DNA of 38,814 nucleotides from Rhodocyclales bacterium (GTDB lineage Bacteria; Pseudomonadota; Gammaproteobacteria; Burkholderiales; Rhodocyclaceae). The stretch covers positions 1-38,814 of the forward strand of contig JACRIX010000076.1 of NCBI GenBank assembly GCA_016215645.1. Reading direction: 5' to 3'. The notes below the pieces were generated by a model. That model saw only the letters and a list, made by a program, of their open reading frames with translations, had not been told where the DNA came from and made no database searches. A program made the translations under genes and the position numbers. Shown piece after piece: positions 2,150-35,749 of the stretch. Numbering within the stretch: the stretch's first letter is position 1; the number at the start of each line of letters is the position of its first letter.

Positions 2150-3700
2150 TCAGGCCATGCGCTTCGCTGCGGCGGCGCGTTTCCGGGCAGTGATTGAGGC
2201 GGCCTTCGGTGCCGGCGGCGCGGCCGCAACGGGCTTCTTCGCTTTCGCCGCCGCGGCCTTCCCGGCTGGCGGCTTCGTGGCCTTCGCCTTGGCCGGCCTG
2301 GACTTCGGCGTCACCGCCGCTTCCAGCTCTGCCAGGGCCTCTTCGGCATACACCGCCAGGCGCTGCATGCTCGGCACCGAGGCATGGCAACCGGTGAAGC
2401 CGAAGTTCATCGCGCCGGCATAGCTTTCACAGGTGATGTTGAGCGCCTGGCCGTGGGTCACGATCGACGCCGGATAGATGGCGACGAGTTCGGCACCGCG
2501 GAAATACAGTGGCGTATCCGGACCGGGCACGTTCGAAATGGTGATGTTGAACATCGGCCGCGTGCGACCGCCGATGCCCGTCAGCAGCGTCAGGATGGTT
2601 GGCGCCATCAACAACACCGTGTATTGCAGCATCGCCTGCCTGGGCAGGCTCTGCACATGCTCCTTGGCATGACGCACCGATTCGCGGATCGCGGCGAGGC
2701 GTTCCCGTGCATCGGCGATGTCGGTGCCCAGCGTGGCGATGATGAAAGTGATGGCGTTGCCGCTGCCGGTGTCGTCTGCCGGCCGCACTGAAACTGGAAT
2801 GCCGGTGGTCAGCGATTGCGCCGGCAACGCGGCACGCTCGTCAAGGAAGCGGCGCAGCGCCCCGCCGCAGATTGCCAGCACCACATCATTGAGCGTGCAT
2901 TCCGCCGCCTTGGCCAGGTTGCGCAATCGTTCCATCGGAAACTGTTGCGTGGCGAAGCGGCGCTTTTCGCGTACCCGCCCGTTGAGCAGCGAACGCGGTG
3001 AGGTGAAGGGCAGGATCATGCCTTCGCCGGTGCCCAGGCCCTTGAGCATCTTGCCGAAGGCGACCACCAGTTGCGGCACCGTCCTGGCCTGGCCGCGCAG
3101 CGCCTCGACCGCCAGGGCCGCCGCATTGGCCACGGTGGGCAGTGGATTGTCATCGCCGGAACGGGGCGGGCGCGGCAGCCCGGAAGCCCAGAAGGGCGGC
3201 AGCTTGCGACTCTTTTCGCGATCGAGCGACATCGCGCGCTGCAACAGCTTCATGCCGCTGACACCGTCGATCAGCGAATGGTGCATCTTGATGAAGAGGG
3301 CGAAGCGGTCGCCCTCCAGGCCCTCGATGAGGGTGCACTCCCAGGGGGGGCGGCTCAGGTCCAGCGGTGTGCTCTGCAGGCGCCCCACCAGCTCGCCGAG
3401 TTCGCGTTCGCCACCCGGCCAGGGCAACGCCGCGTGGCGTACATGGTATTCGAGGTCGATCGCGTCGTCCTCGATCCACACCGGCAGCGGGTTCTTGTTG
3501 AAAGCGTATTTCAGGCGCCGGTTCCACGGCGCCGCAAACTCGCGATGGCCACGAAACTCGACCATCAGCTTGCGCATGTAATCCTTCGGCGCGCCCTCGG
3601 GCAGCCTGAACTGCAACAGCCCGCCGACATGGTTTGGGGTAGCGCGGCTCTCGGTAAACAACCAGGCGGAATCAAGCGGATTGAGACGAACGGAAGTCAT
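2150..3700 (-). CDS. Wax ester synthase/acyl-CoA:diacylglycerol acyltransferase (WS/DGAT)
   Basis: The predicted enzyme esterifies fatty acyl-CoA with a long-chain alcohol or diacylglycerol, making wax esters or triacylglycerol for storage. The 516-residue protein carries the condensing motif HHSLIDG at 140-146 (catalytic His141, Asp145). It also has the family blocks PLDxxxPxWE (about 112-121) and NDVVLAxxGGALR, and the late NVPGP segment. The ATG at 3700 (MTSVRLNPLD) matches the usual N-terminus; an in-frame extension upstream would run into the neighbouring lipoprotein gene. The last 55 residues or so form an odd tail rich in Ala, Lys and Pro with no acidic residue, resembling histone H1-like or phasin tails. 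It is on the same strand as the solute-binding protein upstream, after a 113-bp gap. Confidence 0.93.
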   Translation of the reverse strand: MTSVRLNPLDSAWLFTESRATPNHVGGLLQFRLPEGAPKDYMRKLMVEFRGHREFAAPWNRRLKYAFNKNPLPVWIEDDAIDLEYHVRHAALPWPGGERELGELVGRLQSTPLDLSRPPWECTLIEGLEGDRFALFIKMHHSLIDGVSGMKLLQRAMSLDREKSRKLPPFWASGLPRPPRSGDDNPLPTVANAAALAVEALRGQARTVPQLVVAFGKMLKGLGTGEGMILPFTSPRSLLNGRVREKRRFATQQFPMERLRNLAKAAECTLNDVVLAICGGALRRFLDERAALPAQSLTTGIPVSVRPADDTGSGNAITFIIATLGTDIADARERLAAIRESVRHAKEHVQSLPRQAMLQYTVLLMAPTILTLLTGIGGRTRPMFNITISNVPGPDTPLYFRGAELVAIYPASIVTHGQALNITCESYAGAMNFGFTGCHASVPSMQRLAVYAEEALAELEAAVTPKSRPAKAKATKPPAGKAAAAKAKKPVAAAPPAPKAASITARKRAAAAKRMA

Positions 3701-3786
3701 GGGTTCAAGCCTCGTGCCGGACGGTAAGAGTGCGCACCTTAGCCGATTTGCCAAGGGTTGTGCGAGGCGCCCTGCTCCTGGTCGGC

Positions 3787-3811
3787 AAGAGTCGGCGCTG
3801 GCGCGACGGCG
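3787..3811 (+). repeat. Dispersed repeat copy B
   Basis: AAGAGTCGGCGCTGG followed by CGCGACGGCG. It shares its first 15 bases with copy A and most of its 25 bases with copies C and E. It lies just beyond the stop of the solute-binding protein gene. A CGCCGAC on the far side of the stop (about 3836) could pair with it. Confidence 0.55.
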
Positions 3812-3813
3812 AT

Positions 3814-5955
3814 TCAGCGCGCCGTGGCGGTCTCGCGCCGACGGTACCCGCGCCATGCCGGCCAGATCGCCGCGGCGATCGCCAGCGCCACCAGCAGCAG
3901 CGGCCAGGCCACGGGGCGGTTCCATTCGGCGCGGCGCTGGTCGCGCAAGGCGGTATCGACGCGCTGGTATTTGAGCGTGTTGTGTCCCACCTTGCTTGGT
4001 TTGCGATTCAGTAGCCAGGCATGGCGCAGGCTGTAGTCCTTGGGGTGGAAGCCAAATACCCAGGGTGCATCGTGGCGCAGGATATCGGTCATGCGATCGA
4101 TGATCTCCTGCCGCTGTGGCCCGTTTTCCATGGTCTTCATGCGTTCGAAGTACCGGTCGTATTCCGGGTTCTGGTAGTTGGCGGCGTTCTCGCCGCTTTG
4201 CTTGACCTTGCTCTGCTTGCCATGCAGCAGGAACATGAAGTTTTCAGGGTCGGGATAGTCGGCATTCCAGCCCCAGTAGAAAAGCTGCACCGCACCTTTG
4301 CGCACCTTTTCCTGGAAGCGGTTGTAGTCGGTGCTGCGCACCACCAGTTGCACGTCGAGCTTGGCGAATTGCTTGTTGAGCCAGTCGATGCGCGCCTTGC
4401 CGCCGACGCCGGTCGCCGTGGTGTCGAGGTTGATGACCAGCGGCTCGCCGGTGGCGGCGTCGCGCCCATTGGGCCAGCCCGCCTCGGCCAGCAGGCGCTT
4501 GGCCTCGGCGACGGGTTTGCGCCTGGCCTGGCCGTCCACCCAGTCGTAGCTGTAGCGATTGATACCGGACTCTCCTTCGCGATTGCCAAAGATGCCCGGA
4601 GGAATCAGGCCCTGTGCGGCAACACCACGGCCGTTCTGAAAGATCGAGATAAACTCTTCCTGGTCGATGGCGATGGAAATCGCCTGGCGCAGCTTGCGCC
4701 CGCGCTCGGCGGTTTTGGGATCCGCACCGCCGACCACCGGATCGAGCCAGTTGAAGCCCATGTACATGCTTGACGTCGCCACCGAGGTGGTGAGCACGAT
4801 GCCCTGGGCCTGCATGCCGTCGGAGAGCGTGATCTCGCCGGCGGCAACCTGCACCGCCTGGTCGAAGGAGTCCGAGGAAATGCCCGAAGCATCGTAATAG
4901 CCCTGGAGGAACTTGTTCCAGTAGGGGATCTGCTCCTTCTCGCGGGTGAACACCACCTTGTCGATGAAGGGCAGCACCTGACCGCAATCCTTCAGCAGCC
5001 CCGCTGCCTTGTCTTCGGCCTCGCCTTCGCAGGGATAGGTCTCGCGATGGAAGTTGGGATTCTTCTCCAGCACCATGCGCGCGTTGGGATTGTTCTCGGT
5101 CAGCATGTAGGGCCCGGTGCCGATCGGATACCAGTCCAGCGTCAGGTTCTTCTGCGCCATGCCGGGCTGGCTGTGGAACTTGTCCGCCTCCCAGGGCATG
5201 GGGGCGAAAAAGGGCATCGCCAGCCAGTAGAGGAACTGCGGGTACTTGCCCTTGACGCGGATGCGGTAGCGGTAGCGGTCGATGGCTTCCACGCCGTCGA
5301 GCGTGTGCTGGCGCAGGTCGATCCAGGACTGGTCCTTTTCCGCCTGCAGGCGCTTGCCGTAGTCGCCCAGGCCGACGATGTATTCCTCCATCAGACCGAA
5401 GATCGGCGAGTGCAGGCGCGGGTGCGCCAGGCGTTTGATGCCGTAAACGTAATCCTCGGCGGTCAGCTCGCGGCTGTCGCGCTTGGCGAAGTCGCCGAGC
5501 ACATTGACGGCGTCCAGTTGCGCGGGGCTCAGTGAATGATAGGCATAAGCCCCACCCTCGCCGCGGGCGAAGGCGGGATGCGGCTGGTAGCGAATCCCCG
5601 GCCGGATGCTGACGACGTAGTCGGTGAAGGCAATCCTTGCCGGGTCGGCGTTGTCCGCGAGGCTGCGCCCCTGCGCATCCAGGTAGCGCGGCTGCGGCAC
5701 CGCCTCGGCGGTGGCGGCGATCAGCGCATAGGGACGCTTGAGATAGTGGTACTGCAATGGCGGCTCGTAGATTTGCGCCGTGAAGGTGATCTCGTCCTCG
5801 CTGTAGGACTGCACCGGATCAAGATGCTTGGGCCGGTCGGTAAAGGCACTGTAGAGGATGTTGCGGCCCCGGTCGGCCGCCGGATAGGGGTCGTTCCAGG
5901 CGCTGCCGCAAGCCGCGAGCAGCAGGGCGATAAGGCTGGAAAGCAGGCCGCGCAT
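3814..5955 (-). CDS. ABC transporter substrate-binding lipoprotein, family 5 (oligopeptide type), with C-terminal membrane anchor
   Basis: The product resembles periplasmic peptide- and nickel-binding proteins (SBP_bac_5), which deliver ligand to an ABC importer. The ATG at 5955 is chosen because it gives a clean lipoprotein signal (MRGLLSSLIALLLAACGS, lipobox LAAC); a frame extension of 15 residues upstream has no signal function. The mature part includes the family features LDPVQSYSEDE near the N-terminus and GTGPYML and the YPDPENF region later. At 713 residues it is longer than typical (about 500-600). Unusually, it ends with a predicted transmembrane helix (PVAWPLLLVALAIAAAIW) followed by a basic tail. 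No permease or ATPase partner gene is adjacent, so it is an orphan here. The ligand cannot be told from the sequence. Confidence 0.88.
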   Translation of the reverse strand: MRGLLSSLIALLLAACGSAWNDPYPAADRGRNILYSAFTDRPKHLDPVQSYSEDEITFTAQIYEPPLQYHYLKRPYALIAATAEAVPQPRYLDAQGRSLADNADPARIAFTDYVVSIRPGIRYQPHPAFARGEGGAYAYHSLSPAQLDAVNVLGDFAKRDSRELTAEDYVYGIKRLAHPRLHSPIFGLMEEYIVGLGDYGKRLQAEKDQSWIDLRQHTLDGVEAIDRYRYRIRVKGKYPQFLYWLAMPFFAPMPWEADKFHSQPGMAQKNLTLDWYPIGTGPYMLTENNPNARMVLEKNPNFHRETYPCEGEAEDKAAGLLKDCGQVLPFIDKVVFTREKEQIPYWNKFLQGYYDASGISSDSFDQAVQVAAGEITLSDGMQAQGIVLTTSVATSSMYMGFNWLDPVVGGADPKTAERGRKLRQAISIAIDQEEFISIFQNGRGVAAQGLIPPGIFGNREGESGINRYSYDWVDGQARRKPVAEAKRLLAEAGWPNGRDAATGEPLVINLDTTATGVGGKARIDWLNKQFAKLDVQLVVRSTDYNRFQEKVRKGAVQLFYWGWNADYPDPENFMFLLHGKQSKVKQSGENAANYQNPEYDRYFERMKTMENGPQRQEIIDRMTDILRHDAPWVFGFHPKDYSLRHAWLLNRKPSKVGHNTLKYQRVDTALRDQRRAEWNRPVAWPLLLVALAIAAAIWPAWRGYRRRETATAR

Positions 5956-22544: not shown

Positions 22545-23099
22545 TCAGGCGGCGACGATCGGCGGCGCCTCAGGCAAGGTTCGGGGGAATCCCCGCACCG
22601 CGCAGATACGCTGCACCACCGCCGGATGGGGAGTTTCGACCTCGCCTTGCTCGAAGGCCACGATGTTCAGCCGGGGCCGCAACACGTCCGGCAATTCCCC
22701 CTGTCGCAGCAGGAACGCGGGGTTGGATGGCTTGCCGAAGCGCTCGTTGCCGACCATGAAAGTTTCGTAGATCAACACGCCACCGACTTCCAAGGCATTC
22801 ATGATCTGCGGCAGGAGCGGCCGAAAAAGATAATTGGTCACGACGATGCCCTCAAAAACCCGACCGTAATACGGCCAGGGGCCGCCTTCGAGATCCGCCG
22901 CCCGCGTCGAAATCCCGGGCTCCTGCGCCGCCAGCTCGGCAATGGCGGCGGCGTCGCGATCCACGGCCTCGACCTGATATCCCTGCCGCGCCAGGAATAG
23001 TGAATGCCGGCCGGAACCGCAGGCAAGGTCGAGCACGCGCCCGCCGGGCACGATCAGCGGCGCAAATCGCCGCACCCACTGTGATGCATTTCCACTCAT
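22545..23099 (-). CDS. Class I SAM-dependent methyltransferase
   Basis: The 184-residue protein has the Rossmann-like SAM fold: motif I VLDLACGSGRHSLFLA, the acidic ribose-binding VEAVDRD and motif IV FEGIVVTNYLFRP. It resembles small stand-alone methyltransferases of the TehB-like group; the substrate is unknown. ATG 23099 (MSGNASQW) is chosen because homologues open close to WVRRFAP. ATG 23123 would add eight residues and has a more distant AAGGA. It is divergent from the cyclase gene and 110 bp upstream of the 2TM gene on the same strand. Confidence 0.85.
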   Translation of the reverse strand: MSGNASQWVRRFAPLIVPGGRVLDLACGSGRHSLFLARQGYQVEAVDRDAAAIAELAAQEPGISTRAADLEGGPWPYYGRVFEGIVVTNYLFRPLLPQIMNALEVGGVLIYETFMVGNERFGKPSNPAFLLRQGELPDVLRPRLNIVAFEQGEVETPHPAVVQRICAVRGFPRTLPEAPPIVAA

Positions 23100-23174
23100 G
23101 GCTCCAGCCTTGTCGGGTATCATTTTGAGTCGAATCCTTGTCGCCAGCGACTTTCCGGGTACCGCAACGCCTAA

Positions 23175-24515
23175 ATGTCCGTTCCATCCAGCATCCCGCC
23201 AGGATCCACCCCGGAGAACACGGACGCCCTGCGCGAACAGCTGAGCAACACGACCGCAGCCTACAGCCGCTTCGTGCCGCGGGAGTTCCTCAACCTGTTG
23301 GGGATCGAGGATATACGCAAGGTCGAACTTGGGCAGCAGGTCGAGCGCAAGATGACCATCCTGTTCTGCGACATCCGCAACTTTACCGCGCTGTCGGAAA
23401 CCATGAGTCCGCAGGAGAACTTCAATTTCCTGAATTCCTACCTGGTGCAGATGGAGCCGGTGATCACGGCCCACGGCGGCTTCATCGACAAATACATCGG
23501 CGACGCGATCATGGCGCTGTTTCCCGGCTCGCCGGATGAAGCCCTGCGCTGCGGCCAGGCCATGCTGCGCCAGCTCGAGGACTACAACGACGGGCGCCAG
23601 CGTGCCGGCTACCGACCCATCCGCATCGGCATCGGCATCAATACCGGCATCGTCATCCTTGGCACCATCGGCGGCGCCGCGCGCATGGACGGTACGGTAA
23701 TCGGTGACGCGGTGAATCTCGCCGCCCGCCTCGAACGCCTGACCAAGGAATACCGGGTCTCGATGCTGATCAGCGACTACACCCTGTATTCGCTGGACCA
23801 GCCCAGCGAGTGGGCCATCCGCTTTCTCGACCGCACCCAGGTGCGCGGCAAGCAGGGCTCGCACTCCGTGTACGAGGTGTTCAACAACGACCCGGCGGCA
23901 CTGCTCCAGGCCAAGAAACGAACCATCAAGCTATTCGAGCAGGCACTGGCCTGCTACCACATCGGCGATCACGCCGCCGCGCGCCAGCGCCTGGTCGATT
24001 ACGCCGCGGCCGTGCCCGAAGACACGGCCGTGCACGTGTATCTCGAACGCTGCAATCCCCTGGCGGAAAACTACGGCACGCCGCGGCCGGAACCGATGCC
24101 CCACTGGCACGAGGAATACTCCCACGGCCTGGCCACGGTGGACACCGTGCATCAGAACCTGCTGACCGACATGAATGCCCTGGCGAAGGCCCTCCACGAC
24201 AAGCAGCTCGACCTCTCCGGGACCTTGCTCGACCAGATTCATGTCTCGGCAGGCAAGGACTTCGCCATCGAAGAACAACTGATGCGCCAATCCTCGTATC
24301 CCTTCCTCGATCTGCACGCGCGCCAGCACCAGCGTTTTTTCGAATATTTCGACGAGCTGCGACGCGAGATCGAATCCCGCGAGGAAGACAGGATCTACCT
24401 GATCTTCCGCGTGAAGCGTTTCTTCACCGGCTGGCTGGTCAATCACATCGTCAGCGCCGATCGGCATTTCGGTCATTTCCGCAGATCTGCAAGCAGCCCC
24501 ACGACGTCGGCCTGA
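23175..24515 (+). CDS. Class III adenylate cyclase with C-terminal hemerythrin-like domain
   Basis: The predicted soluble enzyme makes cAMP and probably senses O2, redox or iron. The 446 residues hold a cyclase domain (about 58-235) with metal-binding Asp66 and Asp110, substrate-selecting Lys106 and Thr174 (class IIIb adenylate type), and transition-state Asn181 and Arg185. A TPR-like segment (about 245-300) ends in YLERC. A hemerythrin-like domain (about 311-435) closes the protein. Its diiron ligands line up as His326, Glu366, His381, His385, His424 and Asp429, but the His expected in HFxxEE is Asp362 (KDFAIEE). The start ATG 23175 gives the full cyclase. It stands divergent to the methyltransferase and 137 bp before the Pat-type gene on the same strand. 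Adenylate specificity is inferred from residues only. Confidence 0.9.
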   Translation: MSVPSSIPPGSTPENTDALREQLSNTTAAYSRFVPREFLNLLGIEDIRKVELGQQVERKMTILFCDIRNFTALSETMSPQENFNFLNSYLVQMEPVITAHGGFIDKYIGDAIMALFPGSPDEALRCGQAMLRQLEDYNDGRQRAGYRPIRIGIGINTGIVILGTIGGAARMDGTVIGDAVNLAARLERLTKEYRVSMLISDYTLYSLDQPSEWAIRFLDRTQVRGKQGSHSVYEVFNNDPAALLQAKKRTIKLFEQALACYHIGDHAAARQRLVDYAAAVPEDTAVHVYLERCNPLAENYGTPRPEPMPHWHEEYSHGLATVDTVHQNLLTDMNALAKALHDKQLDLSGTLLDQIHVSAGKDFAIEEQLMRQSSYPFLDLHARQHQRFFEYFDELRREIESREEDRIYLIFRVKRFFTGWLVNHIVSADRHFGHFRRSASSPTTSA

Positions 24516-24652
24516 GCCAAATCGCCGGGCAGGCCGGATGTTCCCCCTGGCTGAGATTTCTAGTGGCCTTCCCCCAAATAGTCGGGCCGAAAATGTTATG
24601 CTGCAACGCACCATCCCGACGCGCCGTCACGCGTAAACTGCTCACCCTGGCC

Positions 24653-27343
24653 ATGCACAACGAACGACATTACCTCCATACGCTTTTCGAGCCGGCATCG
24701 ATTGCCATCATCGGCGCTTCGGAGACGCCCAATTCAATCGGCGTAACCCTGGTCCGCAACATGCTCGACTCGGGCTACAAGGGCAAGCTGTTCTTCGTCA
24801 ACCCCAAACATGAAACCGTGTTCGGCCAGAAGGCCTATGCCACGGTCGACACCATTCCGCAGCGTCTGGATATTGCCGTGATCTGCACCAAGGCGGCAAG
24901 CATTCCCGAGATCATCGATGCCTGCGGTCGCGCCGGCTGCAAGAATGCCATCGTGATTTCCGGCGGCTTTGCCGAAGCCGGCCCGCGCGGCGCCTCGCTG
25001 GAACGCGCCGTGCTGGAAAACGCCCGCCGCCATGGCATGCGCCTGCTCGGCCCCAACTGCCTCGGGCTGATGCGCCCGGGCAGCCAGCTCAACCTGACCT
25101 TCGGCCACGGCTTCGCCCATGCCGGCACCATTGGCCTGATTTCCCAGTCGGGCGCGCTGTGCACCGCGATCCTCGACTGGGCGCTGGCGAAGAATGTCGG
25201 ATTCTCGAACGTGGTGTCGCTGGGCGCCGAAGGCGACATCGACTTCGGCGAAATCCTCGACTACATGGTCTCCGACCCGCGCACCGAGAACATCTTCCTC
25301 TACATCGAGGGCATCAAGAACGCGCGCCGCTTCATGAGTGCCTTGCGTGCGGCCGCGCGCTGCAAGCCGGTGCTGCTGATCAAGGTCGGCAAACATCCGG
25401 CCGGCGAGAAGGCGGCGCTGTCGCACACCGGCGCCCTGGTCGGCGCCGATGACGTCTTCGACGCCGCCCTGCGCCGCGCCGGCGTGGTACGCCTGGCCAA
25501 CGTCGGCCAGATGTACGCCGCGGCATCCGCACTCTTCTCGCACTTCCGACCGCGCGGCAAGCGCCTGGCCATCATCACCAACGGCGGTGGCCCCGGCGTG
25601 ATGGCCGCCGACCATGCCGCCGACATCGACATCCCGCTGGCCCAGTTGTCGGCCGCCACCCTGGCCAGGCTGGGCGAACAACTGCCGATCACCAGTTCGC
25701 GTACCAATCCGATCGACATCCTCGGCGACGCCGATCCCGAACGCTATGGCGCCGCGCTGCAGGCCTGCATCGACGATGACGGCGTGGACGGCGTGCTGGC
25801 GATCCTGACGCCGCAGGCGATGACCGATCCCACCCAGGCGGCGCGCACCGTCATCGAAATCGCGCGCCAATCCGACAAACCCCTGGTCACCTGCTGGATG
25901 GGCGAGGAGCAGGTCGGCGAAGCACGCAAGCTGTTTCAGGGCGCGGCGATACCGACCTTCAGAACACCGGAGCCGGCAGTCGACCTGTTCTCCCACATCT
26001 CCAACTACTACCGCAACCGCCAGTTGCTGATGCAGTCGCCGCCCTCGATTTCCGAGCAGGCGCCGCCGCGCCTCGAATCGGCGCGCCTGGTGATCGAAAC
26101 CGCACTGATGGAAGGGCGCAAGGTCCTCAACGAAATGGAATCGAAGGCGGTACTTGCCGCCTTCCGCATCCCGATCGCGCAAACCGTGGTGGCGCGCTCG
26201 GCCTCCGAAGCCATGGTGCTGGCCGAAGAACTGGGCCTGCCGGTGGTGATGAAGATCGACTCGCCGCAGATCGTGCACAAGGCCGATTCCGGCGGCGTGC
26301 GCCTCAACCTCAACAGCCTGGCGGCGGTGCGCGACTCCTGGCTGGAGATCATGGAGGAAGTGAAGAAGAACCGGCCCGATGCCCACATCAACGGCATCGC
26401 CATCGAGCCCATGATCCAGAAACCCAATGGCCGCGAACTGGTGGTCGGCATGGTACGCGACAAGATCTTCGGCCCGACCATCGTCTTCGGTCCCGGCGGG
26501 GCCGGCATCGAAGCCTTCGCCAGCGACCGCGCCGTGGCGCTGCCACCGCTGAACTCGGTGCTGGTCGCCGACATGCTGGCCTCGACCCGCACCACGGCCC
26601 GGCTCGGCGAGTTCCGCAACATGCCTCCGGTCAACATGAAGGCCATCGAAACCGTGCTGCTCAATGTTTCGGCCATGGTCTGCGAACTGCCCTGGATCTG
26701 CGAGATGGACATCAACCCGCTGATCGTGGATGAGAACACTGCGGTTGCCGTCGATGCCCGCATCACCATCGAAAACATGCCGCTCACCGCCGGTCGCTAC
26801 GACCACATGGCGATCCATCCCTACCCTTCCCACCTGCAGACCAGCTACCAGGCCAAGGACGGCACCCAGGTGACGATCCGGCCGATCCGCCCCGAGGACG
26901 TGCGCATCGAACAGGAGTTCGTCCGCGACCTGTCGGCCGAGTCGCGCTACCTGCGCTTCATGAACACCATCCGCGAAGTCTCGCCGGCGCAACTGGTGCG
27001 CCTGACGCAAATCGATTACGACCGCGAGATGGCCTTCGTCGCCACCATCGACGACCATGGTGCAGAAAAGGAAGTCGGCGTCGCCCGCTACGCCACCAGC
27101 CCGGACGGCGAATCCTGCGAATTCGCCATCGTGGTCGCCGACGACTGGCAGGGCAAGGGTCTGGCGCGACGCCTGATGGGCGTCATCATCGACACCGCCA
27201 GGAGCCGCGGCCTGCGCTACATGCACGGCGATTTCCTGTCCGAGAATTCGCGCATGCTGGCTTTTGTCGCCAGCCTCGGCTTCGTCCTCTCCGCGCACCC
27301 GGAAGACCCCGGCCTCAAGCGCGGCGTGCTGACGCTGAACTGA
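24653..27343 (+). CDS. ADP-forming acyl-CoA synthetase fused to GNAT acetyltransferase (Pat/PatZ-type protein lysine acetyltransferase)
   Basis: Pat-type enzymes acetylate lysines of metabolic enzymes, classically inactivating AMP-forming acyl-CoA synthetases. The 896 residues comprise a CoA-binding domain (about 10-135, SIAIIGAS), a succinyl-CoA-ligase-like region (about 150-460) with SHTGA, an ATP-grasp domain (about 490-715, PVVMKIDSPQIVHKADSGGV) and a GNAT domain (about 740-896) with the acetyl-CoA loop QGKGLA. Unlike E. coli PatZ, which as I recall it has Asn there, the phospho-His site is kept (His258), so the ligase half may be active. The frame stays open far upstream, but similarity begins at ATG 24653 (HYLHTLFEPASIAIIG). 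It lies between two adenylate cyclase genes. No cyclic-nucleotide-binding domain is visible in it. Confidence 0.92.
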   Translation: MHNERHYLHTLFEPASIAIIGASETPNSIGVTLVRNMLDSGYKGKLFFVNPKHETVFGQKAYATVDTIPQRLDIAVICTKAASIPEIIDACGRAGCKNAIVISGGFAEAGPRGASLERAVLENARRHGMRLLGPNCLGLMRPGSQLNLTFGHGFAHAGTIGLISQSGALCTAILDWALAKNVGFSNVVSLGAEGDIDFGEILDYMVSDPRTENIFLYIEGIKNARRFMSALRAAARCKPVLLIKVGKHPAGEKAALSHTGALVGADDVFDAALRRAGVVRLANVGQMYAAASALFSHFRPRGKRLAIITNGGGPGVMAADHAADIDIPLAQLSAATLARLGEQLPITSSRTNPIDILGDADPERYGAALQACIDDDGVDGVLAILTPQAMTDPTQAARTVIEIARQSDKPLVTCWMGEEQVGEARKLFQGAAIPTFRTPEPAVDLFSHISNYYRNRQLLMQSPPSISEQAPPRLESARLVIETALMEGRKVLNEMESKAVLAAFRIPIAQTVVARSASEAMVLAEELGLPVVMKIDSPQIVHKADSGGVRLNLNSLAAVRDSWLEIMEEVKKNRPDAHINGIAIEPMIQKPNGRELVVGMVRDKIFGPTIVFGPGGAGIEAFASDRAVALPPLNSVLVADMLASTRTTARLGEFRNMPPVNMKAIETVLLNVSAMVCELPWICEMDINPLIVDENTAVAVDARITIENMPLTAGRYDHMAIHPYPSHLQTSYQAKDGTQVTIRPIRPEDVRIEQEFVRDLSAESRYLRFMNTIREVSPAQLVRLTQIDYDREMAFVATIDDHGAEKEVGVARYATSPDGESCEFAIVVADDWQGKGLARRLMGVIIDTARSRGLRYMHGDFLSENSRMLAFVASLGFVLSAHPEDPGLKRGVLTLN

Positions 27344-27433
27344 CGCCCATGGCTTCGGTGACCACCAACGCATCATGAAACGCCCGCCCCCTTGCCCAGC
27401 CATGGGCCAGCAAACTCGACCCGCCCCCCTTTG

Positions 27434-27449
27434 CCCCCCTCACGGGGGG
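27434..27449 (+). repeat. C6/G6 hairpin downstream of the Pat-type gene
   Basis: CCCCCC, a 4-base TCAC turn and GGGGGG form a perfect stem in the 165-bp gap before tag. TTCCC follows, not a T run, so it may block RNA decay rather than terminate. The rest of the gap has simple CGCTTCGCTCG-like sequence. Confidence 0.5.
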
Positions 27450-27508
27450 TTCCCATTCGGCTCGCTTCGCTCGATATCACCAGCGACCCATCCGGTCGCT
27501 TCACCCTA

Positions 27509-28096
27509 ATGGCGAAAGTCGGCGCTGACGGCACGGCGCGCTGCCCCTGGTGCGGCGACGATCCGCTCTACGTCGCCTACCACGACCAGGAGTGGGGCGT
27601 CCCCTGCCATGACGAGCGCGCCCTGTTCGAGTTCCTGATCCTCGAAGGCGCCCAGGCCGGCCTGTCCTGGATCACCATCCTCAGGAAGCGCGAGAACTAC
27701 CGCCGCGCCTACCACGGCTTCGATCCGCGCAAGATCGCGCGCTACGGCGAGAACGATGTCGCCCGCCTGCTGGCCGATGCCGGCATCGTGCGCAACCGGC
27801 TCAAGGTCGCGGCGAGCATAGCCAACGCCCGCGCCACGCTGGAGCTTTACGAGCAGGGCGGCAGCCTCGACAGCCTGCTCTGGCAATTCGTCGACGGCCG
27901 GCCACGCCTCAACCGCTGGAAGGCGATGTCCGACGTTCCGGCCATCACGCCGCAGGCCGAAGCCATGTCGAAGGAACTCAAGCGTCGCGGCTTCCGCTTC
28001 ATCGGTCCGACGGTGATGTATGCGCACATGCAGGCCACCGGCATGGTCAACGACCATCTGGTCACCTGCCCGCGCCACCGGGACGTTTCGCGCTGA
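27509..28096 (+). CDS. tag: DNA-3-methyladenine glycosylase I
   Basis: Tag removes 3-methyladenine from alkylated DNA, starting base-excision repair. The 195-residue protein has the Tag signature throughout: RCPWCGDDPLYVAYHDQEWG at the N-terminus, LEGAQAGLSWITIL (helix-hairpin-helix region), FIGPTVMYAHMQATGMVNDH at the C-terminus, and the zinc ligands Cys and His near the N-terminus with the pair in DHLVTCPRH. The ATG at 27509 is the only close start. Its first codons (MAKVGAD) come from a dispersed repeat copy, so the N-terminal nine residues before CPWC look acquired. No good Shine-Dalgarno is seen. Confidence 0.94.
   Translation: MAKVGADGTARCPWCGDDPLYVAYHDQEWGVPCHDERALFEFLILEGAQAGLSWITILRKRENYRRAYHGFDPRKIARYGENDVARLLADAGIVRNRLKVAASIANARATLELYEQGGSLDSLLWQFVDGRPRLNRWKAMSDVPAITPQAEAMSKELKRRGFRFIGPTVMYAHMQATGMVNDHLVTCPRHRDVSR
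27514..27538 (+). repeat. Dispersed repeat copy C, at the start of tag
   Basis: GAAAGTCGGCGCTGACGGCA and the next five bases match copy E at 23 of 25 positions. It begins two codons into tag and encodes Lys-Val-Gly-Ala as residues 3-6. Confidence 0.6.
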
Positions 28097-28129
28097 GACT
28101 CCCGATCCGCGCCGCTGTCGCGTAAACCC

Positions 28130-28157
28130 TTGGCAGAACTGGGTTTCTGGTTACAAT
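28130..28157 (+). promoter_or_regulatory. Candidate sigma-70 promoter for the GAF cyclase gene
   Basis: TTGGCA (28130-28135), a 16-bp spacer and TACAAT (28152-28157) match sigma-70 boxes. RNA would start about 35 bases before the ATG at 28199. No clear ribosome-binding site follows. Confidence 0.5.
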
Positions 28158-28198
28158 AGCCGCATCCAGTAGCCACAGGCGTTCCGCTCCCGCCGCGC

Positions 28199-30556
28199 AT
28201 GCAGATCGGCTTCGAAACCATCCGCGAGATCCTCGAGCATCGCCTGCACCAGGATGACATCGAGCGCTTGCTCCACGGGCTGGACGAAACCGGCAAGGCC
28301 GAACTGTTCTACCGCATCACCGAAATGCTGCGCCGGACCACGGCGCTGGCCGACATTGCCAACCGGGTCAATGACAGCCTTTCTCTGGACGTGCTGTTTC
28401 CGCGCCTGATGGCGGTGGTGACGGAAGCACTCAACGCCGACCGCAGCACCCTGTTCCTGCATGACCCCGACAGCGGCGAGCTGTTTTCGCGCGTGCTCCA
28501 GGGCGACACCATCGGCGAGATCCGCTTCCCCAGCCATCTCGGCGTCGCCGGCTCGGTGTTCACCCGCGGTGACGCCGAGATCATCAGCGACGCCTATGCC
28601 GACACCCGCTTCAACCAGGAGGTCGACCGCAAGACCGGCTACCGCACGCGCAACATCCTCTGCGTGCCGATCCGCAACAAGAAGCGCGAGGTGATCGGCG
28701 TCACCCAGGTGCTGAACAAGCTCTCCGGCGACTTCGATGCCGAAGACCAGCGCTTGCTCGAAGGCCTGTCGCTGCAAGCCTCGGCGGCGCTCGAAAATGC
28801 CCGCCTGTTCGAGAAGGTGGAGCGCCAGCAGCGCGAGGAGGCGATGCTGCTCGAAGTCAGCATTTCCATCGTCTCGGAAATCCACCTCGATCCGCTGCTG
28901 GAAAAGATCATGGCGGCCGCGACCACGCTGTTGAGCGCCGACCGCGGCACGCTGTTCCTTTACGACCCGGACGCCGAGGAGTTGTACTCCCGCGTTGCCG
29001 GTGGCATCACCGCGGAAGGCATCCGCTTTCCGGCCAATGCCGGACTCGCCGGCGAATGCTTCAGCAATGGCAAGGTCATCAACCTGGCCGACGCCTACGC
29101 CGATCCGCGCTTCAACCAGGAGGTCGACCGCCACACCGGCTACCGCACCCACAGCATGCTGTGCATGCCCATCGTCGCCCGCGCCGAACGCAAGATCGGC
29201 GTGATGCAGATCCTCAACCGCCGCGGCGGCCCCTTCGGTGCCGCCGAGGAACGGCGCCTGCGCGCCTTTTGCGCCCAGGCCGCGGTGGCGATCGAGAACG
29301 CCCAGTTGTTCGAGGAGGTGCGCGCCGAGCGCAACTACAACGAGGCCATCCTGCATTCGATGAACAACGCCGTGTTGACGCTCGACGCGGCCGGCGTGGT
29401 GCGCAAGGTCAACGGCTCGGCGGCGCGCATCCTGCGCCGCGGCGCCGAGGAGCTGGTCGGCCGCGAGCTCGACGAGCTCTTCCCCGGTCGCAACCGCTGG
29501 GTGGTGAACAGCCTGGCCAAGGTGCGCGACTCGGGCCGCACCGACATCACCATCGATACCGACCTGATCATCGAAGGCAGTGAGGCCGTCTCGGTCAACC
29601 TGGTCACGGTGCCGCTGACCAGCATGCACGACGAGGCCATCGGCTACATGCTGATGATGGAGGACATCACGCGCGAGAAGCGCCTGCGCAACACCATGTC
29701 GCGCTACATGAGCAAGTCGGTGGTGGACAAGCTGATGGAAAGCGGCGAGGCCGAGCTCGGCGGCATCGGCCGCGACGTCTCGGTGCTGTTCTCCGACATC
29801 CGCGGCTTCACCTCGATCTCCGAGCGCCTCGGCGCCAAGGAGACCGTGGCGCTGCTCAACGAGTACTTCACCGACATGGTGGACATCGTCTTCGCCCACA
29901 ACGGCGTGCTCGACAAATACATCGGCGACATGATCATGGCGGTGTTCGGCTCGGTGCTGCAAAGCGAGGAGGACGCCAGCAACGCGGTGATCGTCGGCAA
30001 CAAGATGATGACCGGCCTGCATGCCCTCAACCGCCGCCGCGCGGCCCGTGGCGCCGAACCGATCCGCATCGGCGTCGGCATCAGCACCGGCAACGTCGTC
30101 GCCGGCAACATCGGCTCCCTGAAGCGCATGGAATACACGGTGATCGGCGACCGCGTGAACCTGGCCGAGCGGCTGGAGGGTGCGAACAAGTTTTATGGCA
30201 CCTCGATCCTGATCTGCGAGGCCACCTGGGCCGCCGTCAGGCACCACGCCGCGACGCGCGAGATCGACCTGATCCGGGTCCGCGGACGCAGCACCCCGGT
30301 GGCGATCCACGAAGCCCTGGGCCACCACTCCGAAGACAGTTTTCCGCATCGCCAGGACTTGCTCGGAGCATTTTCCGCCGGCTTGCAGTATTACCGGCGC
30401 CGCGACTGGTTCGGCGCCGAGCGGCATTTCGGCGACGCCCTGGCCGCGCATCCCGGCGACGGCCCGACCCGGATCTACCTCGAACGCTGCCGCTTCTACC
30501 GCGACCACCCGCCGCCCAACGACTGGGACGGCGTCTGGGAAATGAAAACCAAGTAA
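28199..30556 (+). CDS. GAF-GAF-PAS class III adenylate cyclase (CyaB-like)
   Basis: The 785-residue soluble cyclase has a short N-terminal helical region, GAF1 (about 52-203), GAF2 (about 219-372), PAS (about 380-492), a class III cyclase domain (about 525-705) and a TPR-like tail ending YLERC. The catalytic set is complete: metal Asp533 and Asp577, Lys573 and Thr647 for ATP, Asn654 and Arg658 for the transition state. GAF1 has a near-complete cyclic-nucleotide NKFDE motif (Asn173, Lys174, Phe179, Asp183, then Gln184). In GAF2 it is degenerate (Asn340, Arg341, Phe346, Glu350). The layout resembles cyanobacterial CyaB1, whose GAF domains bind cAMP and give positive feedback. The two GAF units share almost identical DNA locally. 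The acyl-CoA ligase gene follows 22 bp later and is probably co-transcribed. Confidence 0.93.
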   Translation: MQIGFETIREILEHRLHQDDIERLLHGLDETGKAELFYRITEMLRRTTALADIANRVNDSLSLDVLFPRLMAVVTEALNADRSTLFLHDPDSGELFSRVLQGDTIGEIRFPSHLGVAGSVFTRGDAEIISDAYADTRFNQEVDRKTGYRTRNILCVPIRNKKREVIGVTQVLNKLSGDFDAEDQRLLEGLSLQASAALENARLFEKVERQQREEAMLLEVSISIVSEIHLDPLLEKIMAAATTLLSADRGTLFLYDPDAEELYSRVAGGITAEGIRFPANAGLAGECFSNGKVINLADAYADPRFNQEVDRHTGYRTHSMLCMPIVARAERKIGVMQILNRRGGPFGAAEERRLRAFCAQAAVAIENAQLFEEVRAERNYNEAILHSMNNAVLTLDAAGVVRKVNGSAARILRRGAEELVGRELDELFPGRNRWVVNSLAKVRDSGRTDITIDTDLIIEGSEAVSVNLVTVPLTSMHDEAIGYMLMMEDITREKRLRNTMSRYMSKSVVDKLMESGEAELGGIGRDVSVLFSDIRGFTSISERLGAKETVALLNEYFTDMVDIVFAHNGVLDKYIGDMIMAVFGSVLQSEEDASNAVIVGNKMMTGLHALNRRRAARGAEPIRIGVGISTGNVVAGNIGSLKRMEYTVIGDRVNLAERLEGANKFYGTSILICEATWAAVRHHAATREIDLIRVRGRSTPVAIHEALGHHSEDSFPHRQDLLGAFSAGLQYYRRRDWFGAERHFGDALAAHPGDGPTRIYLERCRFYRDHPPPNDWDGVWEMKTK
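28607..29131 (+). repeat. Direct repeat inside the two GAF domains
   Basis: A 24-base stretch beginning CGCTTCAACCAGGAGG is identical at 28607-28630 and 29108-29131, exactly 501 bases (167 codons) apart, in matching positions of GAF1 and GAF2 (RFNQEVDR). The flanking bases are also close. This points to an internal duplication or gene conversion. Confidence 0.8.
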
Positions 30557-30578
30557 TCCCGTCCACGGCAGCCCGACC

Positions 30579-32150
30579 GTGCATCTCTCGACCCTGCTTG
30601 CCCACCATGCCCGCTACCGGCCGCAGGCCACCGCCGTGGTCTTCGATGACCAGCGCCTCGACTACCGCACGTTCAGTGCCCGCGTCGACCGCGTTGCATG
30701 GGCCCTGCTCAACCTCGGCATCGGCAAAGGCGAGCGCGTCGCCACGCTGCTGCCCAACACCCTGGAACTGCTGGAGCTCTATTGGGCCTGCGCCCGCTGC
30801 GGCGCCGTCATCGTCCCGCTCTCGCCACTGCTCACCGGCAGCGGCCTTGCCGGCCTGATCAATGACGCCGGCGCCGTCTGCCTGGTCACCCAGAAGAACC
30901 TGTTGCCGGTGGTGGATGCGGTGATCGGCGAATTGCCGACGCTCGGCACCTCGCGCGTGCTGCTGGTCGATGCGGATATTCCGCCCTGGGGCAGCTACCC
31001 GCAGCAGGTCGCCGCCGCGCCGGACGGCCCGCCTCCGGATGCCGGCGTCGCCGCGGACGACCTGTTCAACATCATGTACACCTCGGGCACCACCGGGCTG
31101 CCCAAGGGCATCATGCACAGCCACCGCATTCGCGCCAGTTACGCGCTGCTGCTGGGGCCGGCCTGGCGCATGACACCCGAATCGGTGGTGCTGCACACCG
31201 GCGCCATCGTCTTCAACGGCGCCTTCGTCACCCTGATGCCGGCCTTCCACCTCGGCGCCACCTACATCCTGCAACGCCAGTTCGACGCGCGCAGCATGCT
31301 CGCGACCATTGCCCGCGAGAAGGTCAGCCACATCATGGTGGTCCCGGCGCAGATCATCGCCCTGCTTGATTCGCCCGACTTCGATCCGGCAGGATTGCAG
31401 TCGCTGCACATGATTCTTTCGCTCGGCGCGCCGCTGACCCAGGCGCGCAAGGACCAGCTCAACGCCCTGCTGCCCGGCCGCTTCCACGAACTCTACGGCC
31501 TCACCGAAGGCTTCCTCACCATCCTCGACAAGACCGATGCCGTGCGCAAGTCAGGCTCGGTGGGTTGCCCGCCGGTGTTCAGCGAGGTGCGCATCGTCGA
31601 CGAGGGCGGCCATGACCTGCCGCCGGGCGAGGCCGGCGAAATCGTCGGCCGCGGCCCCTTCGTCATGCAAGGCTACTGGAACCAGCCCGAACTCACGGCG
31701 CAAACCGTGCGCGAGGGCTGGATCTTCAGCGGCGACATCGGCTACCTCGACGCGGAAGGCTACCTCTACCTCGTCGACCGCAAGAAGGACATGATCGACT
31801 CGGGCGGCGTCAAGGTCTATCCGCGCGACATCGAGGACATCGCCAGCCGCCACCCCGACATCGCCGAAGTCGCCGTGTTCGGCGTGCCGCACGAGACCTG
31901 GGGCGAAACGCCGCTCGCTGCTGTCGTACTGAAAGTCGGCGCTGGCTCGCTCTGCGCACCTGGGAATCCGCTTCGCGGGCAGGTGACGGCGACGGAGCTG
32001 CGCGACTGGATCAACGAACGCGTCGCCGCCCGCTACCAGCGCGTGCGCGAGGTGGTGATCCTCGACGCCTTCCCGCGCAACGCCGCGGGCAAGACCCTCA
32101 AGCGTGAACTGCGCGAACCCTATTGGGCGGGAAGGACTACCAAGATTTGA
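30579..32150 (+). CDS. AMP-forming acyl-CoA synthetase (class I adenylate-forming enzyme)
   Basis: The enzyme activates a carboxylic acid as acyl-AMP and transfers it to CoA. The 523 residues show the P-loop motif YTSGTTGLPKG (167-177), A5 YGLTEG, A7 SGDIGYLD, the hinge RKKDMIDSGGVKVYP and the catalytic Lys505 in PRNAAGK. That last segment is PX4GK, the sequence Pat acetyltransferases recognise. The acid cannot be assigned; medium- or long-chain fatty acids or aromatic acids are all possible. The start is GTG at 30579, 22 bp after the cyclase stop. An unusual insertion (about 452-467, KVGAGSLCAPGNPLRG) near the C-terminal domain begins exactly at a dispersed repeat copy. The 3' end overlaps the convergent MFS gene by 14 bp. 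Confidence 0.9.
   Translation: MHLSTLLAHHARYRPQATAVVFDDQRLDYRTFSARVDRVAWALLNLGIGKGERVATLLPNTLELLELYWACARCGAVIVPLSPLLTGSGLAGLINDAGAVCLVTQKNLLPVVDAVIGELPTLGTSRVLLVDADIPPWGSYPQQVAAAPDGPPPDAGVAADDLFNIMYTSGTTGLPKGIMHSHRIRASYALLLGPAWRMTPESVVLHTGAIVFNGAFVTLMPAFHLGATYILQRQFDARSMLATIAREKVSHIMVVPAQIIALLDSPDFDPAGLQSLHMILSLGAPLTQARKDQLNALLPGRFHELYGLTEGFLTILDKTDAVRKSGSVGCPPVFSEVRIVDEGGHDLPPGEAGEIVGRGPFVMQGYWNQPELTAQTVREGWIFSGDIGYLDAEGYLYLVDRKKDMIDSGGVKVYPRDIEDIASRHPDIAEVAVFGVPHETWGETPLAAVVLKVGAGSLCAPGNPLRGQVTATELRDWINERVAARYQRVREVVILDAFPRNAAGKTLKRELREPYWAGRTTKI
31931..31955 (+). repeat. Dispersed repeat copy D, inside the acyl-CoA synthetase gene
   Basis: GAAAGTCGGCGCTGG at 31931-31945 is identical to the first 15 bases of copy E. 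It is read in frame as Lys-Val-Gly-Ala-Gly (from residue 452), at the start of what looks like an inserted loop. Confidence 0.55.
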
Positions 32151-33372
32151 CTGGGTGCCGCGCCACCCGCCGCCCCATCGCCAGCACCGTCACCACCGCG
32201 AGGATCTGCAACAGTGCAATGCCCGGCAGGACGCCGTCGCGCCCGCCGGCATCGAGCATGATGCCGAACACCAGCGGTCCCAGCGCCAGCCCGACATCGA
32301 GACCGGAATAGACGAAGCCATACACGCGACCGAAGGCCGGCGACTCCTTGCCGCCGGCGATCGATTCGGTGGCGACACGGCGCACCAGCAGATCACGCGA
32401 AGGGCCGGCGAGGCCGACGCCGACGCCGATGCCGACCATCAGTGGCACCACGCTCCATGCCGGCGGCAGCCCGGTGGCCAGGGCGATGGCGAAGACGGCG
32501 GCGCCGACCAGCGCGGCGCCGACGGTGCGGTCATGGGCATGCACGCGCACGGCGATAAAGCCACCGGCCACCATGCCGGCGGCGGCGCCGAGCAGGTAGC
32601 CAGTCAGCGCGGCCACCGCCGCTGCCGCCGAAATGCCATAGATCCCGCCCAGTACCGGGACCGAGAAATTCTGCAAGCCGCTGAATGCCGAGGTGATCAG
32701 GAAGAAGAACAGGAAGGCCAGCCAGATTGCCGGCAGGCCCATGAAGCCGAAAACGCCGGCGCTCGCCGTACCGCCAGCGCCGACTTTCGGCCTGTCGTCG
32801 TCGATCAGGGGCCGCGCAAACTGCAATGCCATCACGGTGGCCGCCGCCACCAGTGCCGCCGCCAATCCCGCACCGCGCCAACCGGCCCAGGCCAGCGCCG
32901 TGCCCGAAATCGCGGCGCCGAGCGCCCAGCCGAGGTTGCCCGAGAGGCCGTGCACCGAAAACGCGTAGCCCAGCCGCGACGGCGACACCTTCTTGTTCAG
33001 CAGCGAGAAATCCGCCGGATGGAACACCGAATTGCCGATTCCCGCCAGCACCACGGTCAACACCAACATCCCGTAATTGGTGGCCGCCGCCAGCGCTAGG
33101 CCCGAGGCCGCGAGCATGCCGACGCCCGCCATCAGCACCCGGCGCGCACCGTAACGATCGACGACGATGCCGGCCAGGGCCTGGCCGATGCCTGAGATCG
33201 TGAAGAACATTGTCATCAGGAAACCGGCCTCGGTGTAGCTAAAGCCGAAATCAGGCATCAGCAAGGGAAACAGCGGCGGTAACAAAAGATGAAACAGGTG
33301 CGAGGTAGCGTGGGCAACGCCGACCAGCGCAATCACTGCCGCATCGCTGCGTATCGGGCGGGTATCGGGCAT
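32137..33372 (-). CDS. Major facilitator superfamily transporter
   Basis: A 411-residue inner-membrane protein with about 12 hydrophobic helices and the MFS loop signature after helix 2 (GIVVDRYGARRVLM). It resembles the fosmidomycin-resistance (Fsr) type of drug or small-molecule exporter (opening SHLFHLLLPPLFPLL; FHPADFSLLNKKV in the first half). The central cytoplasmic loop (DDDRPKVGAGGTASAG, near residue 196) contains repeat copy E. The substrate is unknown. It is convergent with the acyl-CoA ligase, overlapping it by 14 bp, and is separated by 133 bp from the secreted-protein gene transcribed the other way. Confidence 0.88.
   Translation of the reverse strand: MPDTRPIRSDAAVIALVGVAHATSHLFHLLLPPLFPLLMPDFGFSYTEAGFLMTMFFTISGIGQALAGIVVDRYGARRVLMAGVGMLAASGLALAAATNYGMLVLTVVLAGIGNSVFHPADFSLLNKKVSPSRLGYAFSVHGLSGNLGWALGAAISGTALAWAGWRGAGLAAALVAAATVMALQFARPLIDDDRPKVGAGGTASAGVFGFMGLPAIWLAFLFFFLITSAFSGLQNFSVPVLGGIYGISAAAAVAALTGYLLGAAAGMVAGGFIAVRVHAHDRTVGAALVGAAVFAIALATGLPPAWSVVPLMVGIGVGVGLAGPSRDLLVRRVATESIAGGKESPAFGRVYGFVYSGLDVGLALGPLVFGIMLDAGGRDGVLPGIALLQILAVVTVLAMGRRVARHPVKSW
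32764..32788 (-). repeat. Dispersed repeat copy E, inside the MFS gene
   Basis: On the minus strand GAAAGTCGGCGCTGGCGGTA and the next five bases match copy C at 23 of 25 positions. It is read in frame as Lys-Val-Gly-Ala (from residue 196), in the large cytoplasmic loop between the two transporter halves. Confidence 0.6.
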
Positions 33373-35320: not shown

Positions 35321-35749
35321 ATGAAACGTCAACTCGCCGCGCTGTCCTTTCCCTTGATACTTGCGTTGGCTTCGCCTGCAATCGCCCAAGATTCCTCGCG
35401 TGCCTCTGGCAATGCATCAGCGGCGTCGGCAGCTTCATTGGCGGTTGTCTCCATCGCTACCGCATCGGTAGTTGTCGTTTCTGCGCATGCGGGCGGAGTG
35501 ATGGTTGTCGAATCGGTGCGCGCAATCGGGAATGTCGTCGAAATTGTATTGAAGGGAGCGGCAAATGCATCTCGCGCCGTGATCACGGTCACAGCCGCCG
35601 CAGCGAGCGGTGTTGCCATCGCCGCTGGACAAAGCGTGAAGGTGGTTCCCGAAGGAAATGGATACCTTCTGGTAACCGGGAACAAAGTGCTCTGCTACGT
35701 CCCTGCTGAAAGCGATCGTCAACTCGTACGTTCGACGCGCAGCAACTAG
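35321..35749 (+). CDS. Small secreted STM0539-like protein
   Basis: A 142-residue exported protein: signal peptide about 1-24 (cleavage after AIA), then an Ala/Ser/Val-rich mature part with a hydrophobic segment (SIATASVVVVSAHAGGVMVV). The remainder looks like a small beta-rich domain (VVEIVLKGAANASRAVITV, GYLLVTGNKVLCYVP). The pattern is that of STM0539-family proteins, whose function is unknown. ATG 35321 with GGAG upstream gives the signal peptide; the frame is open further upstream but adds an unlikely lead. It precedes the DUF2145 gene by 28 bp on the same strand, an association I recall from other proteobacteria, so the two probably act together. Base composition is less GC-biased than that of the neighbouring genes. 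Confidence 0.75.
   Translation: MKRQLAALSFPLILALASPAIAQDSSRASGNASAASAASLAVVSIATASVVVVSAHAGGVMVVESVRAIGNVVEIVLKGAANASRAVITVTAAAASGVAIAAGQSVKVVPEGNGYLLVTGNKVLCYVPAESDRQLVRSTRSN

Follow-up and report, generated by a model that had tools for sequence, protein, structure and literature searches.

A hemerythrin-adenylate cyclase gene conserved beside a Pat-type acetyltransferase gene in a Rhodocyclales bacterium and its relatives

Control of lysine acetylation by cyclic AMP (cAMP) takes two described forms in the excerpt of PMC8556138 that we draw on: cAMP-binding domains fused to the acetyltransferase in mycobacteria, and control of the pat gene by cAMP-CRP in E. coli. The same text describes priming of Acs by cAMP. 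Here we analyze a stretch of 38,814 nt from a Rhodocyclales bacterium (assembly GCA_016215645.1, contig JACRIX010000076.1, positions 1-38,814; hereafter the window), which comes from an 80%-complete, 3.4-Mb draft genome (G000). In it, a gene for a class III adenylate cyclase with a C-terminal hemerythrin domain, which we call HrAC, lies directly upstream of a gene for a Pat-type acetyltransferase, and a second class III cyclase, GafAC, is encoded farther downstream.

Among the matches listed in a search of the open-licence literature, we found no paper on a hemerythrin-adenylate cyclase. Ligand variation is reported for single-domain hemerythrins in the available part of PMC4919030, which also displays 56 hemerythrin architectures; the cyclase fusion may be one of them. 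We propose that HrAC and Pat form a functional pair in which the output of HrAC changes acetylation, and we put the chances of this at about even.

HrAC and Pat as neighbors

The three features on which the proposal turns are as follows.

23175-24515, plus strand: HrAC, class III adenylate cyclase with C-terminal hemerythrin (open reading frame, profile matches, catalytic residues, AlphaFold model)
24258-24260, plus strand: codon of HrAC Asp362, at the position of the canonical Fe2 histidine in HxxxE (ligand alignment)
24653-27343, plus strand: Pat, NDP (nucleoside diphosphate)-forming acyl-CoA synthetase-like half followed by a C-terminal GNAT (CoA-binding, Succ-CoA-ligase, ATP-grasp_5 and GNAT profiles)

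The cyclase domain of HrAC spans residues 57-228, and the hemerythrin domain residues 310-435, approximately. Class III cyclases of the IIIb type use two metal-binding aspartates, a lysine and a threonine that select the base, and an asparagine/arginine pair, all of which HrAC retains (D66, K106, D110, T174, N181 and R185; DKDTNR). Two hemerythrin profiles match above their cutoffs (TIGR02481, 71.0 bits against 51.75; PF01814, 26.3 against 25.3), and NF033749 scores 75.2, under its cutoff of 84. In the AlphaFold model (mean predicted local distance difference test score 83.4), residues 320-440 form a helical bundle. Foldseek was uninformative on this half because the best 50 of its 704 matches were all cyclases. 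The genome as a whole is rich in hemerythrin domains, with 23 TIGR02481 matches; 53 of 80 genomes of the order have zero.

Pat has the domain order of a type I GNAT enzyme, with the synthetase half N-terminal and the GNAT C-terminal, and it retains alpha-His258, beta-His542 and, in the GNAT, Glu823. In the excerpt of PMC8556138, enzymes of types I and II are described as having a synthetase half that is inactive because it lacks the catalytic histidine. This description does not fit the window Pat, in which His258 is kept, and we therefore file it as PatZ-like by domain order only. When it is aligned with E. coli PatZ (36% identity), a gap in PatZ falls opposite the SHTGAL loop that holds His258. 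The alpha-His is present in all 65 aligned rows other than E. coli (24 from 21 genomes of this genus, some of them represented twice; 5 from the family; 36 from the order), and the beta-His is kept in 58, with Tyr in five and Ser in two. The aligned Pats of the order share the retained catalytic histidine, which does not set this locus apart. Judged by these residues, Pat may combine a working synthetase with an acetyltransferase. Elsewhere, in record L306 (genome G177), an acyl-carrier-protein-like stretch appears by eye to be joined to a Pat-type GNAT in one frame, and genome G178 has a GNAT match and a frame of similar length.

Within the genus, HrAC matches of at least 60% identity occur in all 25 genomes, the window's included; they are partial in G001 and G003, where the contig ends at HrAC, and in G004. 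Wherever both genes share a contig, HrAC lies upstream of Pat on the same strand (23 of 23 loci), at a spacing, measured between match ends, of 105-201 bp in 22 loci and 773 bp in G004. The two genes stay contiguous even where tag (DNA-3-methyladenine glycosylase I) or GafAC has been displaced by 4-11 kb: insertions of about 4 kb separate Pat from tag in G014 and G018, and insertions of about 11 kb separate tag from GafAC in G013 and G007. G016 and record L100 have a second, canonical HrAC between Pat and tag, which comes from outside the Pat-associated clade described below. The HrAC paralogue clade of the window genus includes Sulfuritalea sp. record L096, whose genome has a Pat 90% identical to that of the window, so the genus is probably Sulfuritalea.

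Beyond the genus, the HrAC of record L097 used as a query gave matches with E values no higher than 1e-60 in 36 of 150 genomes of the family; we fetched 30 of these regions, setting aside two cyclase-only matches and four from same-genus genomes. In five other genus codes and in L097, HrAC is the immediate neighbor of Pat, and it stands immediately upstream of a full Pat in G221, G214, G185, G285 and L097. Two further genomes with HrAC upstream of Pat, G260 and G205, were rejected as immediate neighbors because a reading frame intervenes (DJ-1/PfpI-like by eye in G260, 503 residues long in G205). The initial annotation of this region, made from the sequence before any comparison, had staked its case on a neighborhood conserved in relatives, and this expectation holds, above all for HrAC and Pat.

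In some relatives the partner of HrAC has been reduced to its acetyltransferase domain. In the fetched regions, a GNAT-only frame follows HrAC in G319, G238 and G269; counted by record, a GNAT-only Pat follows it in L095 (Rugosibacter sp.), L344, L348 and L351; G285, which keeps the full Pat, shares its genus code with G319 and G238. The L095 protein, 180 residues of Pat type and 52% identical to the window GNAT, is the sole Pat match in its genome, a bin that may be incomplete. The HrAC stop codon TAG and the GNAT start codon GTG overlap by 1 nt in L095 and L348, the genes lie 24 nt apart in L344, and the GNAT frame of L351 opens ahead of the HrAC stop codon. The GNAT-only forms fall within the Pat clade of the family (support 99/97) and so derive from this Pat; the pairing has outlived the loss of some 700 residues. 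The HrAC tree hinted at two independent reductions, which we do not claim, as a single origin was not rejected (approximately unbiased test, p 0.50).

That tree, a quick maximum-likelihood tree of 76 HrACs (two identical), places every HrAC found upstream of Pat or GNAT (34 rows) in one 45-row clade (Shimodaira-Hasegawa-like approximate likelihood ratio test, 99). The other 11 rows are a dispersed paralogue with Gln at the Asp362 position (7), L338, L343, L347 and the contig-end record L050. A single clade fits one old association kept by descent, which is weaker evidence than repeated independent pairing.

Several observations weigh against a functional pair. Pat itself, as the initial annotation had stated, has no cAMP-binding domain (no PF00027 match at E 0.001). 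The pat and GafAC genes carry separate promoter-like elements, and a scan of the window with the CRP consensus gave two relaxed matches against 9.2 expected, neither of which stands out. Pat loci were examined in 40 genomes of the order (36 from outside the family; 33 with at least 5 kb on both sides), and none has a class III cyclase profile match; as a positive control, the profile recovered all 65 of the 65 loci with a known cyclase. Pat is thus widespread in the order, and none of the 36 loci outside the family has a cyclase beside it, which makes the link lineage-specific. Within the family, the methyltransferase-Pat arrangement occurs without HrAC in G091 and G135, and a stand-alone hemerythrin takes the place of HrAC upstream of Pat in G044 and G173. 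No Pat or GNAT is present in 21 of the 30 fetched regions with HrAC. Inside the Pat-associated clade itself are the Gln paralogue and three HrACs with no Pat or GNAT after them (L338, L343 and L347, the last two records ending about 2.3 and 1.6 kb past HrAC). One HrAC, L055 of genome G004, lacks about residues 153-191 and with them the catalytic Thr, Asn and Arg, and its frame is open. Finally, the genome holds 24 matches to HrAC, so cAMP may be a shared pool.

The main rival is a conserved block without common function, in which a single ancestral event brought HrAC next to pat, the arrangement was inherited from then on, and the cAMP of HrAC serves other targets. We regard this rival as a serious possibility, if a less than even one. 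A divergent methyltransferase gene, an ATP-binding cassette (ABC) gene and tag are conserved too and accompany HrAC and Pat in most loci, which means that block inheritance accounts for some of the conservation; the HrACs found before Pat form one clade and may trace to one event; and no cyclase stands at any of the 36 Pat loci outside the family. The reduced loci speak against this explanation. In L344 and L348 the 20-kb region has no methyltransferase match and the synthetase half of Pat is lost, and still HrAC and GNAT adjoin; in L348 and L095 they overlap by a nucleotide.

The same adjoining or overlapping genes would also suit a physical complex, with HrAC controlling the acetyltransferase through direct contact and cAMP playing a secondary part. 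The HrAC that G004 keeps without its catalytic residues agrees with such a complex, which we nevertheless consider improbable, as the catalytic residues of the cyclase are otherwise intact. A functional pair working through the cyclase output remains our preferred reading of the locus.

Iron ligands of the hemerythrin half

According to the portion of PMC9388753 that we use, canonical hemerythrins carry the ligand pattern H-HxxxE-HxxxH-HxxxxD, in which three His bind Fe1 and two bind Fe2, and O2 binds Fe2. The window HrAC has six of the seven iron ligands. Asp362 replaces the second Fe2 His, that of HxxxE, which leaves the domain short of the seven-ligand set of an O2-binding hemerythrin; phmmer aligned Asp362 with the corresponding HxxxE His of DcrH. 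Our assignment of motif positions to Fe1 and Fe2 is taken from P. gouldii hemerythrin, which we presume to hold here.

Across the 76 HrACs, which are related and so do not give independent counts, the Asp362 position is occupied by His in 27, Asp in 25, Gln in 7, Leu in 7, Ala in 3, Arg in 2, and Val, Glu, Ile, Gly and Asn in one each. The remaining six ligands are conserved in 70 to 76 of the rows. The HrAC tree requires a minimum of six changes from His to another residue or the reverse. The bridging Glu is Gln in the four Ala or Gly rows and is retained in all 25 Asp rows. From these patterns, a probable reading is that the predicted Fe1 site is kept, whereas rows with Asp or Gln have a modified Fe2 site and rows with Ala, Gly or Leu have lost it. 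A second, independent Asp at this position occurs in L353 (G222), whose HrAC lies outside the Pat-associated clade and has sisters with His.

Hemerythrins from other loci are canonical in 33 of 34 rows, the lone exception being a truncated match; this set was drawn from the 30 loci with the highest scores, with three Pat or HrAC regions added, and is biased toward canonical forms, two of its rows are one gene, and one is itself a cyclase fusion. Records L233 and L234 (genus code g18) have a stand-alone canonical hemerythrin upstream of Pat, in place of HrAC.

The initial annotation had proposed an O2/redox input to HrAC. Because the Fe2 His is missing in the window and is kept in only 27 of the HrACs, the O2 part of this proposal is doubtful; redox or iron sensing is retained in the model we favor.

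GafAC, the ligase and promoter-like elements

The remaining features of the locus are listed below. All five genes of the initial annotation, from HrAC to the ligase, are present with the domains and coordinates it gave, as judged by reading frames and domain profiles.

22545-23123, minus strand: class I S-adenosylmethionine-dependent methyltransferase (TehB-like), divergent from HrAC, a conserved neighbor (Pfam, synteny)
24594-24610, plus strand: extended -10-like element with 9-bp palindrome (TGnTATGC...TGCANNGCA) before pat (22-locus alignment)
27509-28096, plus strand: tag, DNA-3-methyladenine glycosylase I, probable passenger; likely start ATG 27509 (profiles)
28148-28157, plus strand: TGGTTACAAT promoter-like element before GafAC (19-locus alignment)
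28199-30556, plus strand: GafAC, GAF-GAF-PAS class III cyclase of CyaB1/CyaB2 build (profiles, PDB matches)
30579-32150, plus strand: AMP-forming acyl-CoA ligase (AMP-binding), 22 bp after GafAC (profiles)
32137-33372, minus strand: major facilitator superfamily transporter, convergent, right-hand border (Pfam, synteny)

In 21 genomes of the genus, GafAC shares a contig with tag and lies downstream of it. G009 has GafAC on another contig piece, and in G017 no GafAC appeared within 11 kb of tag. A second cyclase beside Pat was seen in this genus and nowhere else we examined. CyaB1 and CyaB2, the models for its build, include a PAS domain and are labeled class IIIb. The best solved relative of GafAC is the CyaB2 GAF pair (1ykd, E 9.6e-45), followed by the GAFs of PDE5 and PDE2. 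Its catalytic DKDTNR set is intact in 22 of 22 loci, as are the N, K, F and D of NKFDE in GAF1, where the E is not kept (4/5); GAF2 of the window reads N-R-F-E-E at these positions. In CyaB2, binding of cAMP to the GAFs raises cyclase activity, according to an excerpt of PMC4411481. Given this resemblance, the ligand of GafAC is probably cAMP, and we infer that GafAC would act as a cAMP amplifier. The separate "ligand signal" once assigned to this cyclase would then most likely be cAMP itself.

The ligase, 22 bp downstream, is probably co-transcribed with GafAC. It had been singled out as a likely Pat target for its PX4GK motif, which is indeed at Pro499-Lys505. The motif is found in 19 of 19 AMP-binding_C matches of the same genome, which rules it out as a sign of a specific target. 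Nor is the ligase a fixed member of the locus: it follows GafAC in 17 of 22 loci and is missing in five (G004, G012, G015, G020 and G021), making it optional. A search of 18 genomes of the genus found no match of at least 60% identity in G003, G004, G012, G015 and G017, the best there being 59% (G015).

Upstream of pat, the extended -10-like element with its palindrome is conserved in 22 aligned loci, and its pattern has three matches in the genome. Upstream of GafAC, TGGTTACAAT or, in a few loci, a near variant of it occurs in 19 aligned loci, among the matches listed. As each gene has its own conserved element, a single operon is not favored, and pat and GafAC are probably transcribed separately. 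The palindrome before pat, TGCNNNGC, resembles PhaR boxes published in PMC10888616, of which we use an excerpt. PhaR as its regulator was not confirmed: related sites, judged by eye at six loci (one without a match), include none before a recognized polyester-metabolism gene. A similar element (TGCANNGCA) precedes, elsewhere in the genome, what looks by eye like a NuoE/NuoF-like fusion gene.

CRP control, a route suggested in the initial annotation, is not supported at this locus. The site count is below chance, and the two relaxed matches lie at 28690, inside GafAC, and at 35578, outside the locus. The genome does encode a CRP-like protein with a GE...RSAT cassette and a helix-turn-helix match, along with three Sir2-family matches. 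These proteins and the placement of Lys505 within PX4GK suit the full circuit first proposed, in which CRP relays the signal of both cyclases to pat and the ligase is acetylated by Pat at Lys505, but with a motif shared by all 19 such matches, a ligase missing from loci and genomes of the genus, and no CRP site, we consider that circuit very unlikely. The earlier scheme is thus partly supported: its conserved neighborhood stands, its PX4GK clue, fixed ligase and CRP control are not supported, and its O2 and ligand signals are modified.

Two side observations concern the window itself. The gap between Pat and tag (27344-27508) is about 165 bp, compared with less than 50 bp in 16 of 21 relatives and large gaps in the other five; it contains a C-run/G-run inverted stretch and is perhaps a small insertion. 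A wax ester synthase/diacylglycerol acyltransferase gene lies at 2150-3925 on the minus strand.

A proposed HrAC-Pat mechanism and known systems

If HrAC and Pat are a functional pair, the redox or metal state of the hemerythrin bundle would change HrAC cyclase activity, with the bundle sensing redox state or iron and not binding O2 reversibly. The resulting cAMP would raise Pat-dependent acetylation, either through transcription or by substrate priming, in which cAMP, as reported for Acs, would occupy the nucleotide pocket of AMP-forming CoA ligases and make them better Pat substrates. In the window genus, the downstream CyaB-like GafAC would amplify the signal, since its GAF domains are predicted to bind cAMP. 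We infer each of these biochemical steps from what was observed: gene order, conservation, residues, the GNAT-only pairing and the repeated loss of the Fe2 His. The weakest is the route from cAMP to Pat, for which substrate priming or direct contact are the candidates.

A bolder version, which we offer tentatively and think unlikely as a whole, is that HrAC represents a new sensor class: a hemerythrin bundle with Fe2 given up or rebuilt and Fe1 kept would serve as a redox/iron gate on a cyclase that acts for one lysine acetyltransferase alone, and the overlapping HrAC/GNAT pair of Rugosibacter type would be a minimal two-protein redox-cAMP-acetylation module. If the pairing is functional, a cyclase gene beside or overlapping an acetyltransferase gene would be a third form of cAMP control of acetylation, and acetylation would be tied to redox or iron state. 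Because one iron-ligand His has been lost repeatedly, the HrACs also offer a natural mutant series on what hemerythrin sensors need to signal, and the two-gene form of Rugosibacter makes the model directly testable.

Each part of the locus has a described relative. Hemerythrin gating of a cyclic-nucleotide enzyme by redox is known from Bhr-DGC of Vibrio cholerae and Bhr-HD-GYP of Ferrovum, as set out in excerpts of PMC9388753 and PMC8846402; unlike these, HrAC should produce cAMP, and its hemerythrin is C-terminal and is predicted to lack an Fe2 His. The domain belongs to the same sequence family as that of DcrH (2avk and 2awc, E 3e-11 and 5e-11), with Asp362 in place of a ligand His. GafAC shares with Anabaena CyaB1 and CyaB2 the tandem cyclic-nucleotide-type GAFs before a class III cyclase, although its GAF1 has four of the five NKFDE residues and its cAMP binding is a prediction. 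Pat shares with E. coli PatZ and Salmonella Pat a synthetase-like half followed by a C-terminal GNAT, but it keeps the catalytic alpha-His and loop that PatZ lacks, and it lies beside cyclases. To the cAMP-dependent Pat of mycobacteria (type III) it corresponds in the GNAT domain. A link between cAMP and acetylation would be common to both, whereas in the window Pat, which has no cyclic-nucleotide-binding domain, that link would run through the neighboring cyclase.

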